Part shown: positions 37,248 through 61,064 of the stretch, piece by piece
Position numbering within the stretch: the stretch's first letter is position 1
Layout: every line of letters begins with the position of its first letter
DNA from: an uncultured Bacteroidales bacterium
GTDB taxonomy: Bacteria > Bacteroidota > Bacteroidia > Bacteroidales > P3
Assembly (NCBI GenBank): GCA_947175635.1
Contig: CAMWNM010000004.1
Coordinates: 34,131 to 98,130 of the forward strand
Length of the DNA: 64,000 nucleotides
Direction: 5' to 3'
Position numbers and translations under genes: made by a program
Notes under the pieces: model-generated
Seen by the model: the letters and a program-made list of their open reading frames with translations, nothing else
Database searches by the model: none
Told to the model about the DNA's origin: nothing

Positions 37248-37267
37248 GCGTGCCTAAGATATTTCTT

Positions 37268-39139: not shown

Positions 39140-39207
39140 ATTGAAATTATTTTAAGGCTTTGCTTGCCTGATTCTAAATTTTCTTTTTTGCAAAAAAACA
39201 TTCCGTT

Positions 39208-53923: not shown

Positions 53924-55630
53924 ATGAAAAACCTCGATTTTCAACCCAAATTATTCTCTTTGCTCAAGAACTACGACAGAAGCCGCTTCATGGCCGATTT
54001 GATGGCCGGCATCATCGTGGGCATCGTGGCCTTGCCGCTTGCCATCGCTTTCGGTATCGCATCGGGCGTGAGTCCTGAAAAAGGTATCATCACCGCCATC
54101 GTAGCCGGATTCATCATCTCCTTTCTGGGCGGCAGCAAGGTGCAGATCGGCGGCCCTACGGGCGCTTTCATCGTTATCATCTACGGTATCATCCAGCAAT
54201 ACGGCATCGAGGGGCTCACGGTGGCCACACTGATGGCAGGAGTGCTGTTGATACTGTTAGGGGTGTTCAAGCTCGGCACCGTCATCAAGTTCATTCCCTA
54301 CCCCATCATCGTGGGCTTTACCGCCGGTATCGCCGTTACCATTTTCACCACGCAGATAGCCGATATTTTCGGACTGGACTTTCAGGGCGAGAAAGTGCCG
54401 GGCGACTTTGTGGGCAAATGGATCCTCTACTTCAAATACTTCGGCAGCGTGAATTGGTGGAACGTGATCGTGAGCGTGGTCAGCGTGTTCATCATTGCCC
54501 TTACACCGAAATTGCTCAAGAAGATTCCCGGCTCGCTCATCGCCATCATCGTGGTAACCGTCGGAGTGTATTTCCTCAGGGCTTACGCGGGCATCACCTG
54601 CATCGACACCATCGGCGACCGCTTTACCATCGCCGCCGAACTGCCTGCGGCCACGATTCCTTCGTTGGATTGGGCAGCTATCAAGAACCTCTTTCCCGTG
54701 GCGATCACAATTGCCGTGCTGGGGGCGATCGAAAGCCTGCTTTCGGCCACCGTGGCCGACGGGGTTATCGGCGACCGGCACAACTCCAACACAGAATTGA
54801 TTGCCCAGGGGATTGCCAATATGGTTACTCCGCTCTTCGGCGGTATTCCGGCCACCGGCGCCATCGCCCGAACCATGACCAATATCAACAACGGCGGGAA
54901 AACGCCTGTTGCAGGCATCATCCATGCAGTGGTATTGCTGTTGATTCTGCTTTTCCTGATGCCGCTGGCCAAATACATTCCCATGGCCTGCCTGGCGGGC
55001 GTGCTGGTGGTGGTGTCGTATAACATGAGCGGATGGAGAACTTTCAAGGCCCTGATGAAAAACCCCGGAAGCGATGTGGCGGTGCTGCTCATCACCTTTT
55101 TCCTCACCGTTATCTTCGACCTTACGGTTGCCATCGAAGTAGGCCTGGTGATTGCCTGCGTGCTGTTTATCAAACGTGTGATGGAGACCACGCAGATTTC
55201 GGTCATCAAGAACGAACTCGACCCCAGCAACGAATCCGATCTGGTGATGCATGAAGAACACCTGAGCATTCCCGACGGCGTGGAAGTGTATGAGATTAAC
55301 GGACCTTATTTCTTCGGCATCGCCACCCGTTTCGAGGAAACGATGAACCAGCTCGGCGACCGCCCCAGGATTCGGATTATCCGGATGCGGCGCGTGCCTT
55401 TCATCGACTCCTCGGGTTTGCACAATCTGGAATCGCTCTGCCACATGTCGCATCAGAACGGTATCCGCATCATTCTCTCGGGCGTAAGCGAAAAGGTTCA
55501 CGAAACGCTCTCCAAATCGGGATTTTTCAGTATTGTGGGCAGCGAAAACGTCTGCGCCAACATCAACCTTGCCTTGGAACGCTCGCGCAAGATGCTGGAG
55601 GAACTGGACGGGACGGGAAACGCCGGTTAA
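53924..55630 (+). CDS. SulP family anion permease with C-terminal STAS domain
   Basis: MADLMAGIIVGIVALPLAIAFGIASGVSPEKGIITAIVAGFIISFLGGSKVQIGGPTGAFIVI; STAS-like MRRVPFIDSSGLHNLESL. Confidence 0.94.
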   Translation: MKNLDFQPKLFSLLKNYDRSRFMADLMAGIIVGIVALPLAIAFGIASGVSPEKGIITAIVAGFIISFLGGSKVQIGGPTGAFIVIIYGIIQQYGIEGLTVATLMAGVLLILLGVFKLGTVIKFIPYPIIVGFTAGIAVTIFTTQIADIFGLDFQGEKVPGDFVGKWILYFKYFGSVNWWNVIVSVVSVFIIALTPKLLKKIPGSLIAIIVVTVGVYFLRAYAGITCIDTIGDRFTIAAELPAATIPSLDWAAIKNLFPVAITIAVLGAIESLLSATVADGVIGDRHNSNTELIAQGIANMVTPLFGGIPATGAIARTMTNINNGGKTPVAGIIHAVVLLLILLFLMPLAKYIPMACLAGVLVVVSYNMSGWRTFKALMKNPGSDVAVLLITFFLTVIFDLTVAIEVGLVIACVLFIKRVMETTQISVIKNELDPSNESDLVMHEEHLSIPDGVEVYEINGPYFFGIATRFEETMNQLGDRPRIRIIRMRRVPFIDSSGLHNLESLCHMSHQNGIRIILSGVSEKVHETLSKSGFFSIVGSENVCANINLALERSRKMLEELDGTGNAG

Positions 55631-55716: not shown

Positions 55717-56523
55717 ATGAGCGTAAATAAAGACAAGCAAAGACGAGAGGTTGTCGTATCCCTCACTTCCTTTCCGGCCGCCATATCCTACGCGACAGGC
55801 GCTGTCAAGTCTGTTCTTGCCGGTTCCGTGTTGCCCGACAAGGTGGTGCTTTATCTCACGTTCTCCCAATTTGATTCCGAAGGTATTCCCATTCCTGAAG
55901 CCTTGACCGAGCTGGCCAAAGGGAATCCATTGTTCGAAATACGCAACTACGACCCGGATATCCGCTCGTACCGAAAACTTGTTCCCGCCCTGCGGGACTT
56001 TCCCGAGGCCGTCATCGTAACCGTTGACGATGACGTGGACTATCATCCGCATATGCTGCGCGACCTGTTGCGTCTGCATGAAAGGTTTCCCGAGGCCATC
56101 ATCGCGCATAGAGCCAAACGGGTGTTGGCGGAGAAGCCTTATCGAAAATGGCCGAAGTTCAGATGGTATCACTTTTTTCCCAAAAAAATCCAGCTTGGTT
56201 TCGACTGCATTCAGACCGGCTGTGCCGGTGTGCTTTACCCACCCCATTCGCTGAAGAAGGAAATGATGGAGGTTGCGCTCTTTACACAATTGGCACCTAC
56301 CGCCGATGACTTTTGGTTCTGGGCGGCCGCAGTGGTGAACGGCACCAAAATTCTTCCCGTACCTTTCGGGCCGCACAACAAGCCGCGAGGATTGGGGAAA
56401 CCGCGCGAACTTTCGCTTAAAACGGTTAACTTCAAAGCGGGAAAAGACCGCAACGATGCCGCTTTCCATGCCATACTCGACAAATACCCGCTTATCAGAC
56501 AACGAATTGACGATGGAAAATAA
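55717..56523 (+). CDS. Putative glycosyltransferase (GT-A-like, DDD motif)
   Basis: REVVVSLTSFPAAISYATGAVKSVLAGSVLPDKVVLYLT...VIVTVDDDVDYHPHMLRDLL; overlaps the next gene. Confidence 0.75.
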   Translation: MSVNKDKQRREVVVSLTSFPAAISYATGAVKSVLAGSVLPDKVVLYLTFSQFDSEGIPIPEALTELAKGNPLFEIRNYDPDIRSYRKLVPALRDFPEAVIVTVDDDVDYHPHMLRDLLRLHERFPEAIIAHRAKRVLAEKPYRKWPKFRWYHFFPKKIQLGFDCIQTGCAGVLYPPHSLKKEMMEVALFTQLAPTADDFWFWAAAVVNGTKILPVPFGPHNKPRGLGKPRELSLKTVNFKAGKDRNDAAFHAILDKYPLIRQRIDDGK

Positions 56524-57469
56524 AACCCGACCGACCGAAATAGATCTGGTGTATCTGTGGGTTAACGGCAATGATCCGCAGTGGCGGGCCAAACATGATG
56601 CCGTTACAGGCAGGACCCAAATCCAGAAATCCCTGGATGGAAAAGGCCGCTATGCTGAAAACGGGGAATTGAAATACAGTCTGCGTTCCATTGAAATGTA
56701 CGCGCCGTGGATCCGTAAGATCTTTATCGTTACCGACAACCAGCGGCCTGAATGGCTGGACACTTCCCATCCCAAGATACAGATTGTGGATCACACGGAA
56801 ATCATGCCAAAGGAAAGTCTGCCCTGTTTCAATTCCTCCGTAATCGAACACTTCCTTCCCCGCATTCCCGGTTTGGCCGAACACTTCTTGTTTGCCAACG
56901 ACGATATGCTGCTGAACCGCCCGGTTACACCCTCGACTTTCTTTGCCCCGGACGGGCTTCCCATTATCCGTTTCCATTACAAGCCTTGCAGAAAACTGTC
57001 CTTATGGTTCAGGAAAAATTTCCTGAAAAGAAAGAAACTGGGCAACTACAACCAGATTATCAAAAACGCCGCGGATCTGGTGGAAAAGAAATACGGCATC
57101 TACTTCGGCAGCCGCTCGCACCATAACATAGACGCTTACCTGAAGAGCGACTACGCGCATACAGGCGAAATTTTCAAGGAAGCGCTTGCGCCGACTTTTC
57201 CCCACCATATACGTCATGACGAGGATATACAACGCCACCTTTATTCCTACTGCGCCCTCGCCGAAAAACGGGCGCATCTGCACTATGTAACCCGCAAGAC
57301 CTCGTTCCGGCTCCAGATCCACGAAGCACATCTCTACAGCAAGCTGGAAAGATACAACCCTACGTTTTTGTGCATGAACGACTCTCAGTTTGCCAACGAT
57401 GACGACCGTTTGCGATCCGCCGGATACTTAAAGAAACGATTTCCCCGCAAATCCCAGTTCGAGAAATAA
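56513..57469 (+). CDS. Stealth-family capsular polysaccharide phosphotransferase (copy 1)
   Basis: CR1 IDLVYLWVNGNDPQWRAK; CR2 LKYSLRSIEMYAPWIRKIFIVTDNQRPEWLDTSHPKIQIVDHTEIMP...FNSSVIEHFLPRIPGLAEHFLFANDDMLLNRPV; CR3-like region with HHNIDAY. Confidence 0.9.
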   Translation: MENKTRPTEIDLVYLWVNGNDPQWRAKHDAVTGRTQIQKSLDGKGRYAENGELKYSLRSIEMYAPWIRKIFIVTDNQRPEWLDTSHPKIQIVDHTEIMPKESLPCFNSSVIEHFLPRIPGLAEHFLFANDDMLLNRPVTPSTFFAPDGLPIIRFHYKPCRKLSLWFRKNFLKRKKLGNYNQIIKNAADLVEKKYGIYFGSRSHHNIDAYLKSDYAHTGEIFKEALAPTFPHHIRHDEDIQRHLYSYCALAEKRAHLHYVTRKTSFRLQIHEAHLYSKLERYNPTFLCMNDSQFANDDDRLRSAGYLKKRFPRKSQFEK

Positions 57470-57473
57470 AAAG

Positions 57474-58430
57474 ATGGACAATACGACAAAATCGACAGAT
57501 ATAGACTTGGTTTACCTTTGGGTAAACGGCAACGATCCGAAGTGGCGTGCCAAACGCAACGCCGTTATCGGAAAGACCGAAGAGGGGTCGGCCGTAAACT
57601 GCGAAGGCCGCTATGCAGACAATGATGAACTGAAATACAGTCTGCGCGCCGTGGAAATGTACGCGCCGTGGGTCCGTAAGATTTTCATCGTTACCGACAA
57701 CCAGCGGCCCGAATGGCTGGACACCTCCCATCCCAAAATACAGATTGTTGACCATACGGAGATCTTGCCGCCGCAAAGCCTGCCGTCTTTCAACGCCACG
57801 GTAATCGAACACTTCCTCTACCGTATTCCGGGGCTGGCGGAACATTTCCTGTTTGCCAACGATGATATGTTCATCAACCGACCGGTTACAGGCGCCGATT
57901 TTTTCGGAGCCGACGGCCTTCCCATCATACGGTTCAACCGCCGCCGCTTCCGCAGACTCACCTTGTTCTTGAAAGAAAAGGTGTTAAAAAAAGGCATGAG
58001 CAACTACAACCGGATCATTCAAAACGCGGCACGACTGGTGGAAGCAAGATTCGGCATCTATTTCGGAAGCAAGACGCACCACAATATCGACGCTTACCTA
58101 CGAAGCGATTATCAACATACCTACGAGAAAATCTTCAAGGACGATATCGAACCGACCCTTGTCAACCACATTCGCAGCGACAACGACATACAGCGCAACC
58201 TATACGCTTATGTGGCGATAGTGCGGAAAAGGGCGCACCTGCATTATGTTTCGCAACGAACATCGTTCAGGTTCCACATCGACAACCCCAAGCACTATCG
58301 GAAATTGGAGAAATTCAATCCGATGCTTTTCTGTATGAACGATTCCCAATATGCCAATCAAGCAGACAGGGAACATGTAACCGAATACCTCAGGCAACGG
58401 TTTCCGGAAAAATCAAAATTCGAGAAATAA
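57474..58430 (+). CDS. Stealth-family capsular polysaccharide phosphotransferase (copy 2, tandem paralog)
   Basis: IDLVYLWVNGNDPKWRAK ... IFIVTDNQRPEWLDTSHPKIQIVDHTEILP ... GLAEHFLFANDDMFINRPV; long near-identical DNA stretches with copy 1; 4-nt gap. Confidence 0.9.
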   Translation: MDNTTKSTDIDLVYLWVNGNDPKWRAKRNAVIGKTEEGSAVNCEGRYADNDELKYSLRAVEMYAPWVRKIFIVTDNQRPEWLDTSHPKIQIVDHTEILPPQSLPSFNATVIEHFLYRIPGLAEHFLFANDDMFINRPVTGADFFGADGLPIIRFNRRRFRRLTLFLKEKVLKKGMSNYNRIIQNAARLVEARFGIYFGSKTHHNIDAYLRSDYQHTYEKIFKDDIEPTLVNHIRSDNDIQRNLYAYVAIVRKRAHLHYVSQRTSFRFHIDNPKHYRKLEKFNPMLFCMNDSQYANQADREHVTEYLRQRFPEKSKFEK

Positions 58431-58433
58431 GCG

Positions 58434-59312
58434 CTACCGCGCCTCAATGTCATTGAGGTCGTAGCGGTCGAAATACGCCGACGGCACGGTCTTTTGCGTG
58501 CCGCTCGCCCTGCCGCGGTTCTGTTTTTCCAGAAACTCTTCCCGCGACCTTACCGCATAATGATTGATCCGTATCACATCTTGTTGCGGTTCGCGTTCAC
58601 GAAAATGCCTCCGGATAGGATTTCCGTGAGAATCGGCCGCATGGCCGGATATACGCGCCACTTCGTGGCATCCTATCATGGAGAATACCCGACGGGGATC
58701 AACGATGCTCTTGACATGACGGTTCAAGGGATGGGCCGGTTCGGAATGATACCGGAAGCGTGCCATCACCGGAGCATCGGACTTCTTGACCGCCCCGCCG
58801 CTGCCATAAATCAGCCAATTGATTTCCACAGCCGGAACATGCTCAAAACGATGGAGAAACATCGGTATCGAACTGTCTTGTACCGGAACGACAAACTCAT
58901 CGAGATCGATGAATGCCAGCCACCGCGTATCGAAACGATAATTCTCCAGACAATCATCGTAAGCGGCCAGCTGCCTGCGGTATCCGGGGAAATAGCGGTA
59001 TTCCACCAAACCCGAGGCGATATAAGGCTCCAGCACCTGACGGGTGCAATCGGTACTTTCATTGTCGTAGATATAGAACTTCTCCACCCCCATGCCGCGA
59101 TGCCACTCGAGCCATTCCTTGAAATAGGGCCCCTCGTCTTTGGCAATGGCGCAGACAGCCAGATAATATCTGGGCGAACCGGTATTTTTCCGGATCCTCC
59201 GCCTTAACTTCAAAGCGTTGAACACGCCGTAGCGCAAGATGCCACGCCATCTGTTCCGCGCCATCTTGCAGGGAATCATTCCCGCTATTATCTCCGCGGC
59301 CACCTTGTTCAT
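58434..59312 (-). CDS. Glycosyltransferase family 92-like protein
   Basis: YYLAVCAIAKDEGPYFKEWLEWHRGMGVEKFYIYDNESTDCT...RWLAFIDLDEFVVP. Confidence 0.85.
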   Translation of the reverse strand: MNKVAAEIIAGMIPCKMARNRWRGILRYGVFNALKLRRRIRKNTGSPRYYLAVCAIAKDEGPYFKEWLEWHRGMGVEKFYIYDNESTDCTRQVLEPYIASGLVEYRYFPGYRRQLAAYDDCLENYRFDTRWLAFIDLDEFVVPVQDSSIPMFLHRFEHVPAVEINWLIYGSGGAVKKSDAPVMARFRYHSEPAHPLNRHVKSIVDPRRVFSMIGCHEVARISGHAADSHGNPIRRHFREREPQQDVIRINHYAVRSREEFLEKQNRGRASGTQKTVPSAYFDRYDLNDIEAR

Positions 59313-60301
59313 CTTTCAAAACTTGATTTTGCAGGTAAGATATGGTCGAATGCCGCCTTAAGGCTTTCCATCACCTGTTCGTAATGGCGGATATGCACGT
59401 TATCGTTGAGACATATCAATTTGTAGGACTGGTCGTGTATCGCCTTGACAGCCTTTTTCGACTTGATCATGAGCGGGAACATCTTGGTGTCGGCATAGGT
59501 GTTGTAAGGCGCGAAATCGCCTTTGCAGATCTGCCAGGTGCGGAACAATTCCGGCGTGTAATCGGTTACAGCGCGGAATCGGTTGGCGGAGGTTTCGGTC
59601 AGTTCTTTTTCGGCCACCGCCCAAACTTCCTCAAAAGTACGCTTCAGATACGGCTGGGCATTATGGGGCGTACGGAGCGTGATGAACTTCCCGTACGGTT
59701 GAAGGATATAATTCCAACGCGCCCTTGCACCGTAACTTTTATCAAACCATTTGTCGCGGAAACGCGCCATCACTTCCTTTTTGTTGAAATGCCGGTTGAT
59801 TACGCGCAGGTTGTTCTTGATTCTCTTATACCATTGAGACCAAGCCGGATTATATTGAAAAGCCGCTATATCGCAAGGCAACCCGTTCTTAAAGAAACGA
59901 GCCGGACTTATGGCATCGGTAATATAAAAATCATCGTTGAAATAAACGAAATGTTCCGCCAACCCCGGAATCTTATGCATATACCGTTCGATTACCACAG
60001 AATTATAGGTAGGCAGGAATTGCAACGGAATAAAATCCCGATGATCCACCAGATTGATTTTGGGATTCGACGCATCCAGCCACTCGGGCTTCTGCCCGCA
60101 GGTAACAAAATGAATCTTGCGGACCCAGGGGGCGAACTTCTCCACGCCGCGGAACCAATATTTCAAGAATCCGTAATCCCGGAATCGGGCATGGCTAACA
60201 CCGTTTTTCTCATTCTTCTTCTCTCCGGCGTATCGGGCAAACTCTTCTTTCCATTCGGGGGTATCCATATCCACCCAGGTAACGATGAAGTCAATGTCCA
60301 T
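59309..60301 (-). CDS. Stealth-family phosphotransferase (divergent third copy)
   Basis: IDFIVTWVDMDTPEWKEEFARYAG; YGFLKYWFRGVEKFAPWVRKIHFVTCGQKPEWLDASNPKINLVDHRDFIP; HFVYFNDDFYITDAI. ATGA overlap with the GT92-like gene. Confidence 0.87.
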   Translation of the reverse strand: MDIDFIVTWVDMDTPEWKEEFARYAGEKKNEKNGVSHARFRDYGFLKYWFRGVEKFAPWVRKIHFVTCGQKPEWLDASNPKINLVDHRDFIPLQFLPTYNSVVIERYMHKIPGLAEHFVYFNDDFYITDAISPARFFKNGLPCDIAAFQYNPAWSQWYKRIKNNLRVINRHFNKKEVMARFRDKWFDKSYGARARWNYILQPYGKFITLRTPHNAQPYLKRTFEEVWAVAEKELTETSANRFRAVTDYTPELFRTWQICKGDFAPYNTYADTKMFPLMIKSKKAVKAIHDQSYKLICLNDNVHIRHYEQVMESLKAAFDHILPAKSSFER

Positions 60302-60386: not shown

Positions 60387-61064
60387 CTACCGGTATTCCA
60401 GTCCGAACACGCAGGCGAAGTTCCGGCGCAGGCAGTCGCAGACCTGTGCGAAATCCAAGGCACGGCCCAGTTCCTGCTGCATGGAGGTTACCCCTTTGTC
60501 GGTAAAGCCGCAAGGGTTTATCAGCCGGAAATAAGACAAATCGGTATTGATATTGAGCGCGAAACCGTGCATGGTAACATAGCGCGAACATTTCACGCCG
60601 ATAGCGCAGATCTTACGGGCACGGGGCGTATGCGGTTCAATCCACACGCCGGTGGCCCCCGGCAGGCGTTCACAGGCGATGCCGTATTCAGCCATGCTGC
60701 GGATAACCACTTCTTCTATCTTATCCACATAAGCCTTTACGCCCAAAGGGAATTCTTCCAGATTGAATATCGGATAGCCCACCAGCTGGCCGGGGCCGTG
60801 AAAGGTTACGTCGCCGCCTCTGTCCACATGGATAAACTCGGCGTTCTTGGCTTGCAGCAAGGCCGCCGATGCCAACATATTGCTGTCTTTGCCGCTTCGG
60901 CCCACGGTAAACACCGGATTGTGTTCCACAAACAGAAGGCGGTTGCAGCCTGTCTTTCCGGCGGCTTTGGCCTGCTTCACCTCCTCCAGCAAACTTTCCT
61001 GCAACGCCCACACCTCTCGGTAGGAACGTCTGCCCAGACTTTCAAATGTACAGGAAACCTTCAC
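60387..61064 (-). CDS. lipB: Octanoyltransferase
   Basis: LLFVEHNPVFTVGRSGKDSNML; FIHVDRGGDVTFHGPGQLVGYPIFNLEEF; GVTSMQQELGRALDF. Confidence 0.94.
   Translation of the reverse strand: MKVSCTFESLGRRSYREVWALQESLLEEVKQAKAAGKTGCNRLLFVEHNPVFTVGRSGKDSNMLASAALLQAKNAEFIHVDRGGDVTFHGPGQLVGYPIFNLEEFPLGVKAYVDKIEEVVIRSMAEYGIACERLPGATGVWIEPHTPRARKICAIGVKCSRYVTMHGFALNINTDLSYFRLINPCGFTDKGVTSMQQELGRALDFAQVCDCLRRNFACVFGLEYR

Follow-up and report, generated by a model that had tools for sequence, protein, structure and literature searches.

Members of the Stealth family include CpsY of Mycobacterium tuberculosis (structure 8j2n), GNPTAB and the capsule enzymes of Neisseria meningitidis A and X. Stealth proteins have also been proposed to make the sugar-phosphate-sugar bridges of lipopolysaccharide (LPS) O-antigens, namely protein 20D of Haemophilus parainfluenzae strain 20 and WfgC of Escherichia coli O152 (PMC3989065). 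In the Bacteroidales, B. thetaiotaomicron makes its lipooligosaccharide (LOS) with many glycosyltransferases (GTs); BT3362-BT3380 is a single large locus for this non-repeating LOS, and Stealth goes unmentioned in the text of that paper (PMC5850320). Here we analyze a block of five genes, A to E, at positions 55717-60301 of a 64,000-nucleotide window from an uncultured Bacteroidales bacterium (assembly GCA_947175635.1, contig CAMWNM010000004.1). Compared with the known Stealth systems, this block joins Stealth genes of two clades to two GT genes without capsule machinery. The 20D and WfgC loci are full O-antigen clusters, whereas the present set is small, free-standing, without a polymerase and, in other genera, tied to lpxL. 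Each enzyme class is already known; what appears to be new is a recurring, rearrangeable set of Stealth, KfiA-like and GT92 genes near lipid A acyltransferase genes. In the open-access literature searched, there was no description of a small free-standing set of at least two Stealth genes, a KfiA-like GT and a GT92 gene, and no relevant paper on Stealth plus GT92 in Bacteroidetes. We lean towards reading the block as a compact, horizontally mobile phosphoglycan module that builds or caps an oligosaccharide on a lipid-anchored acceptor.

Genes B (56513..57469, + strand, 318 residues) and C (57474..58430, + strand, 318 residues) encode putative Stealth hexose-1-phosphate transferases with 66% identity to each other, and gene E (59309..60301, - strand, 330 residues) encodes a Stealth phosphotransferase of a second clade, split from the B/C clade with support of 100/100. 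All three are single-domain proteins. In Pfam, Stealth CR2 is matched by B, C and E at 6.2e-46, 1.2e-44 and 1.2e-42 (145-156 bits, cut-off 39.4), and CR1 at 3.5e-11, 1.2e-13 and 2.5e-7 (31-51 bits, cut-off 27.2). CR4 reaches 21.9-26.3 bits in the three proteins, just below its cut-off of 27.4; CR3 is detectable only in E, at 20.4 bits by hmmscan and 24.7 bits in a six-frame search (cut-off 24.2). B matches CpsY 8j2n over its full length (E 8.2e-41), C through residues 9-318 (E 3.7e-45), and E with an E value of 4.5e-30. CpsY activity requires E305, N322, D324 and R419 (PMC10668966). Identical residues are aligned at all four positions in B, C and E, the CpsY numbers being assigned from the chain numbering. 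These are exactly the three Stealth CR2 genes of the genome (G000). The original prediction of three Stealth proteins and two GTs is borne out by these profiles, and the Stealth membership of B, C and E is well supported. UMP-releasing hexose-1-phosphate transfer is their predicted activity.

Gene A (55717..56523, + strand, 268 residues) encodes a KfiA/GT45-like GT of GT-A type. Nothing in Pfam or NCBIfam scores above cut-off, and KfiA is the first match in a profile search (E 0.0015). The predicted fold (pLDDT 84) has KfiA 5z8b as its best match in the PDB (Foldseek 9.6e-9, 18% identity), and a DDD motif at residues 104-106 is invariant across 20 homologues. KfiA, of family GT45, is the K5 N-acetylglucosaminyl transferase. 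The profile and the modelled fold make A a probable relative of KfiA; with respect to GT45, we claim likeness and not membership. Gene D (58434..59312, - strand, 292 residues) matches GT92 in Pfam (PF01697, 4.9e-27, 95.6 bits against a cut-off of 23). Its profile match to GalS1 8d3t, which we take to be a GT92 enzyme, has an E value of 3e-7, and its model (pLDDT 78) finds the same structure as the best PDB match (E 1.1e-11). The earlier labels "GT-A-like" and "GT92-like" thus stood, and were sharpened to KfiA/GT45-like for A and to a GalS1-like fold for D. KfiA and GalS1 are the nearest solved structures, yet the identity is only 15-18%, so neither donor nor linkage can be transferred from them.

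The five open reading frames are all intact, and the order is sulP-[A, B, C facing D, E]-lipB-lipA-typA. A and B overlap by 11 nt, with the ATG of B inside the end of A; the longer B frame from nt 56456 is a mechanical start. B and C are separated by 4 nt, C faces D across 3 nt, and D and E overlap by 4 nt at an ATGA. Further copies of the set were located when about 85,000 species genomes were scanned with C. The E-type Stealth gene (StE) and GT92, usually with A and with one to three B/C copies, recur in Duncaniella, Leyella, other Prevotellaceae, Bacteroidaceae and Muribaculaceae. The set is compact, rearranged, and placed at unrelated sites across the Bacteroidales. Convergent layouts like that of the window are found, for example, in L005, L006, L007, L011 and L012, and nine loci (L018-L026) carry StE-GT92-A-B/C as a codirectional run. 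The original prediction saw an islet in two convergent halves; the layout is as described, and the codirectional loci indicate that the halves are one unit. The five genes very probably form one functional module. At L011:7185-7970, a Fic/DOC-domain gene lies within the module, flanked by two Stealth genes. In an alphaproteobacterial locus (L031:4562-7241), a Stealth gene overlaps a KfiA-like gene behind rseP-bamA-GT8.

The commonest neighbour of the module is a gene of the PF03279 family, the lpxL-family lipid A acyltransferases (Pfam 1e-27 to 1e-32 in the four loci tested). Outside the window's genus it is adjacent or at most three genes away in 20 of the 24 loci. This count omits L013 and L015, which meet a contig end, and L030 is cut at one side; it includes L010, whose lpxL was hidden by an antisense reading frame, the other 19 being read directly. 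A tight lpxL-StE-GT92 run is frequent, and in ten loci lpxL and StE are 11-55 nt apart, which suggests that the two are cotranscribed. The orientation of lpxL varies: it lies upstream of StE and codirectional, convergent with B/C, divergent from A, or upstream of C. The genes further out are unrelated (glutamyl/glutaminyl-tRNA synthetase, EF-Ts, asparaginase, pseudouridine synthase). An inherited fixed gene order therefore does not account for the link. For a genome of about 2,500 genes, we estimate the chance of lpxL lying within a few genes to be of the order of a few in a thousand, a figure to be read with loci that are mutually related and drawn from module-bearing genomes. In L022 a gene of the transferase family (PF04413, 1.8e-18) for 3-deoxy-D-manno-octulosonic acid (Kdo) overlaps lpxL by 4 nt. 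The G185 and G187 clusters have an added O-antigen-ligase-family gene, and that of G187 also a PAP2 phosphatase.

The lpxL linkage, the LOS of Bacteroides and the precedents for Stealth in LPS together make the module an apparent kit for an LPS- or lipid-A-linked phosphoglycan. The acceptor in most carriers is probably the LPS/lipid-A branch rather than the capsule. The original prediction proposed a phosphoglycan on a carrier assembled elsewhere; the enzyme class agrees with this, and the preference for an LPS/lipid-A-type carrier over a capsule, to which the lpxL ties point, was unforeseen.

Two rivals differ in the carrier. In one, the module decorates a capsule or O-antigen of the Wzx/Wzy type that other loci of the genome assemble on undecaprenyl phosphate. 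The characterised Stealth polymerases are capsule enzymes (PMC5974469), and on contig C1 of G000 about 7 kb separate a Wzy_C gene from a Wzx-family gene (L163:7447-15864). However, the module lies mostly outside polymerase clusters and beside lpxL-family genes, and a Wzy_C-family gene is near it only in L028, L126 and L127. We regard this rival as rather unlikely, though the Kdo pathway missing from the window's lineage (see below) speaks for it. The L163 locus also includes a protein with a glucuronyl C5-epimerase C-terminal domain. In the other rival, the target of the module is the outer glycan on the O-glycoproteins general to Bacteroidota (LFG-type pathway). This pathway occurs across the phylum; its outer glycans differ between species and, in some taxa, its genes are scattered (PMC12871550). 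It is independent of Kdo and would outlast a loss of waaA. But in the loci read, where some neighbours are unassigned, we recognised no LFG-type metG/wzx pair next to the module, the review does not mention phosphate in these glycans (PMC12871550), and the lpxL linkage would be left unexplained. This explanation is improbable.

Several observations weigh against the LPS/lipid-A carrier. The lpxL link was counted in module-bearing genomes only. In 7/25 module genomes there is a second PF03279 hit, some of them weak, so that the copy beside the module is not necessarily the principal lipid A enzyme of those genomes; a single LpxL is usual in Bacteroides species (PMC5850320). The proposal that the module-linked lpxL is always the sole copy of its genome was rejected on the same count. 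Physical linkage to lipid A or Kdo genes holds only outside the window's genus, and none is present in the window itself, where lipB occupies the slot beside E that an lpxL-family gene holds in several other genera. The PF04413 Kdo transferase is absent from 12/13 genomes of the window's genus, including G000. In G012, the only one having it, the order is rpoC-dNK-kdsB-SPOR-trmB-waaA-porin-like, with waaA at L168:7110-8366 (- strand) and kdsB at L168:10464-11252 (- strand). The window keeps this order of rpoC, dNK, SPOR, trmB and the porin-like gene. At the syntenic site of waaA there are just 20 nt (37248-37267), and at that of kdsB just 68 nt (39140-39207); tblastn of the window finds neither gene. 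The sole PF03279 protein found in G000 (L162:8884-9843, contig C2) has ketosynthase-like genes and an aromatic amino acid lyase as neighbours, a cluster of the aryl-polyene type.

The absence of waaA and kdsB suggests a Bacteroidales lineage without Kdo-LPS. With PF03279 found only in the aryl-polyene-type cluster, it also makes a Kdo-core acceptor unlikely in the window's organism. We do not claim total loss of LPS, as an LpxC-FabZ fusion is kept in G000 (L167:9242-10666, contig C11; active-site motifs present by eye) and in 10/12 other genomes of the genus. Neither lpxA nor lpxD is beside it in G000, in the readable genomes of the genus, or in G014, G017 and G145; lpxA follows lpxC in G185 and G187, and also in those g4 genomes in which the contig runs on. 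Either the lineage makes a Kdo-less lipid A, or its Lpx pathway is partly lost. Since the module is maintained despite the Kdo loss, its acceptor here would be either a lipid A that lacks Kdo or some other lipid-linked glycan, such as that made by the Wzx/Wzy_C locus on contig C1. The LPS/lipid-A branch as acceptor in this organism is accordingly only a tentative proposal. It is quite doubtful that, in a lineage without canonical LpxL, Kdo transferase and CMP-Kdo synthetase, the module was kept in order to attach sugars through phosphodiesters straight to Kdo-free lipid A (or to a different outer-membrane lipid), the product being an LPS-like glycolipid whose sugar-phosphate bridge replaces the Kdo core.

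The block was predicted to be an accessory system, and its distribution bears this out with little doubt. Stealth CR2 is present in 17/190 genomes of the family and a relative of C in 9/13 genomes of the genus; the hypothesis of core genes was rejected on these counts. The site is bounded by the housekeeping gene sulP (53924..55630, + strand; PF00916, 1.9e-86) on the left and lipB (60387..61064, - strand; LplA-B_cat PF21948, 2.3e-49) on the right, Pfam thereby confirming the predicted flanks. lipB is codirectional with E and D, 85 nt from E. The GC content of the block (0.47-0.54) matches the flanks and gives no composition signal of foreign DNA.

Stealth genes lie between or beside sulP and lipB in 5/13 congeneric genomes (G000, G003, G004, G005 and G010, the G010 site being split across two contigs, L120 and L121). 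sulP is 90-95% identical among the congeners sharing the site, and lipB 72-92% across the genus. In G010, sulP (95%) and lipB (91-92%) are close to those of the window, whereas the Stealth and GT genes there are only 30-42% identical. This pattern is an apparent allelic replacement, in which the glycan genes would have been swapped at the site. Related genes occupy other sites in G008, beside rimO-ftsY, and in G006. In the Stealth tree the B of the window clusters with that of Duncaniella (99/91), apart from the B of its congeners. The position fits an exchange between families; an old duplication with differential loss is the alternative. In G006, StealthE adjoins a tyrosine recombinase (L119:10133-11158, PF00589, 4.1e-45), a possible mobility gene.

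The content of the site varies among congeners: G003 and G004 are without A, and G005 has two copies of A and one B/C gene. Such variation would suit a collection of unrelated, decaying GT genes caught between housekeeping genes. Yet A, C, D and E have dN/dS values of 0.05-0.10 when the window is compared with congeners, and lipB gives the same. Together with the conserved catalytic residues and the invariant DDD, these values indicate that the genes are not relics and are, judging from the alignments, under purifying selection. The same gene set also forms a codirectional run in other families. Decay is very improbable.

The scheme that we infer for the module concerns its donors, exact linkages, acceptor and surface display. 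In the cytoplasm, A would add a sugar, probably from UDP-N-acetylhexosamine, and D another, probably from UDP-galactose or UDP-hexose. B, C and E, using a UDP-sugar as donor, would transfer hexose(NAc)-1-phosphate to the hydroxyl of a sugar with release of UMP. In this way a short oligosaccharide containing two or three sugar-1-phosphate-sugar bridges would be built or capped on a lipid-anchored acceptor that is made elsewhere. The lipid A/LOS branch is the probable acceptor in most Bacteroidales; the window's organism would use Kdo-free lipid A or a different lipid-linked glycan. Export would be by the carrier's own machinery, which would explain why the module encodes no flippase or polymerase: a Pfam search of the block proteins found no flippase, polymerase or ABC exporter, as had been predicted for export genes.

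The findings suggest that the module is a portable kit for cell-surface decoration. With Kdo genes apparently lost from the window's lineage, the question of the carrier becomes sharper, and Duncaniella muris and Leyella stercorea are cultured organisms that carry the module. If the proposal is true, many gut Bacteroidales would have phosphodiester-bridged sugars in their LOS or LPS, and their surface charge, phage reception and immune recognition would be altered.

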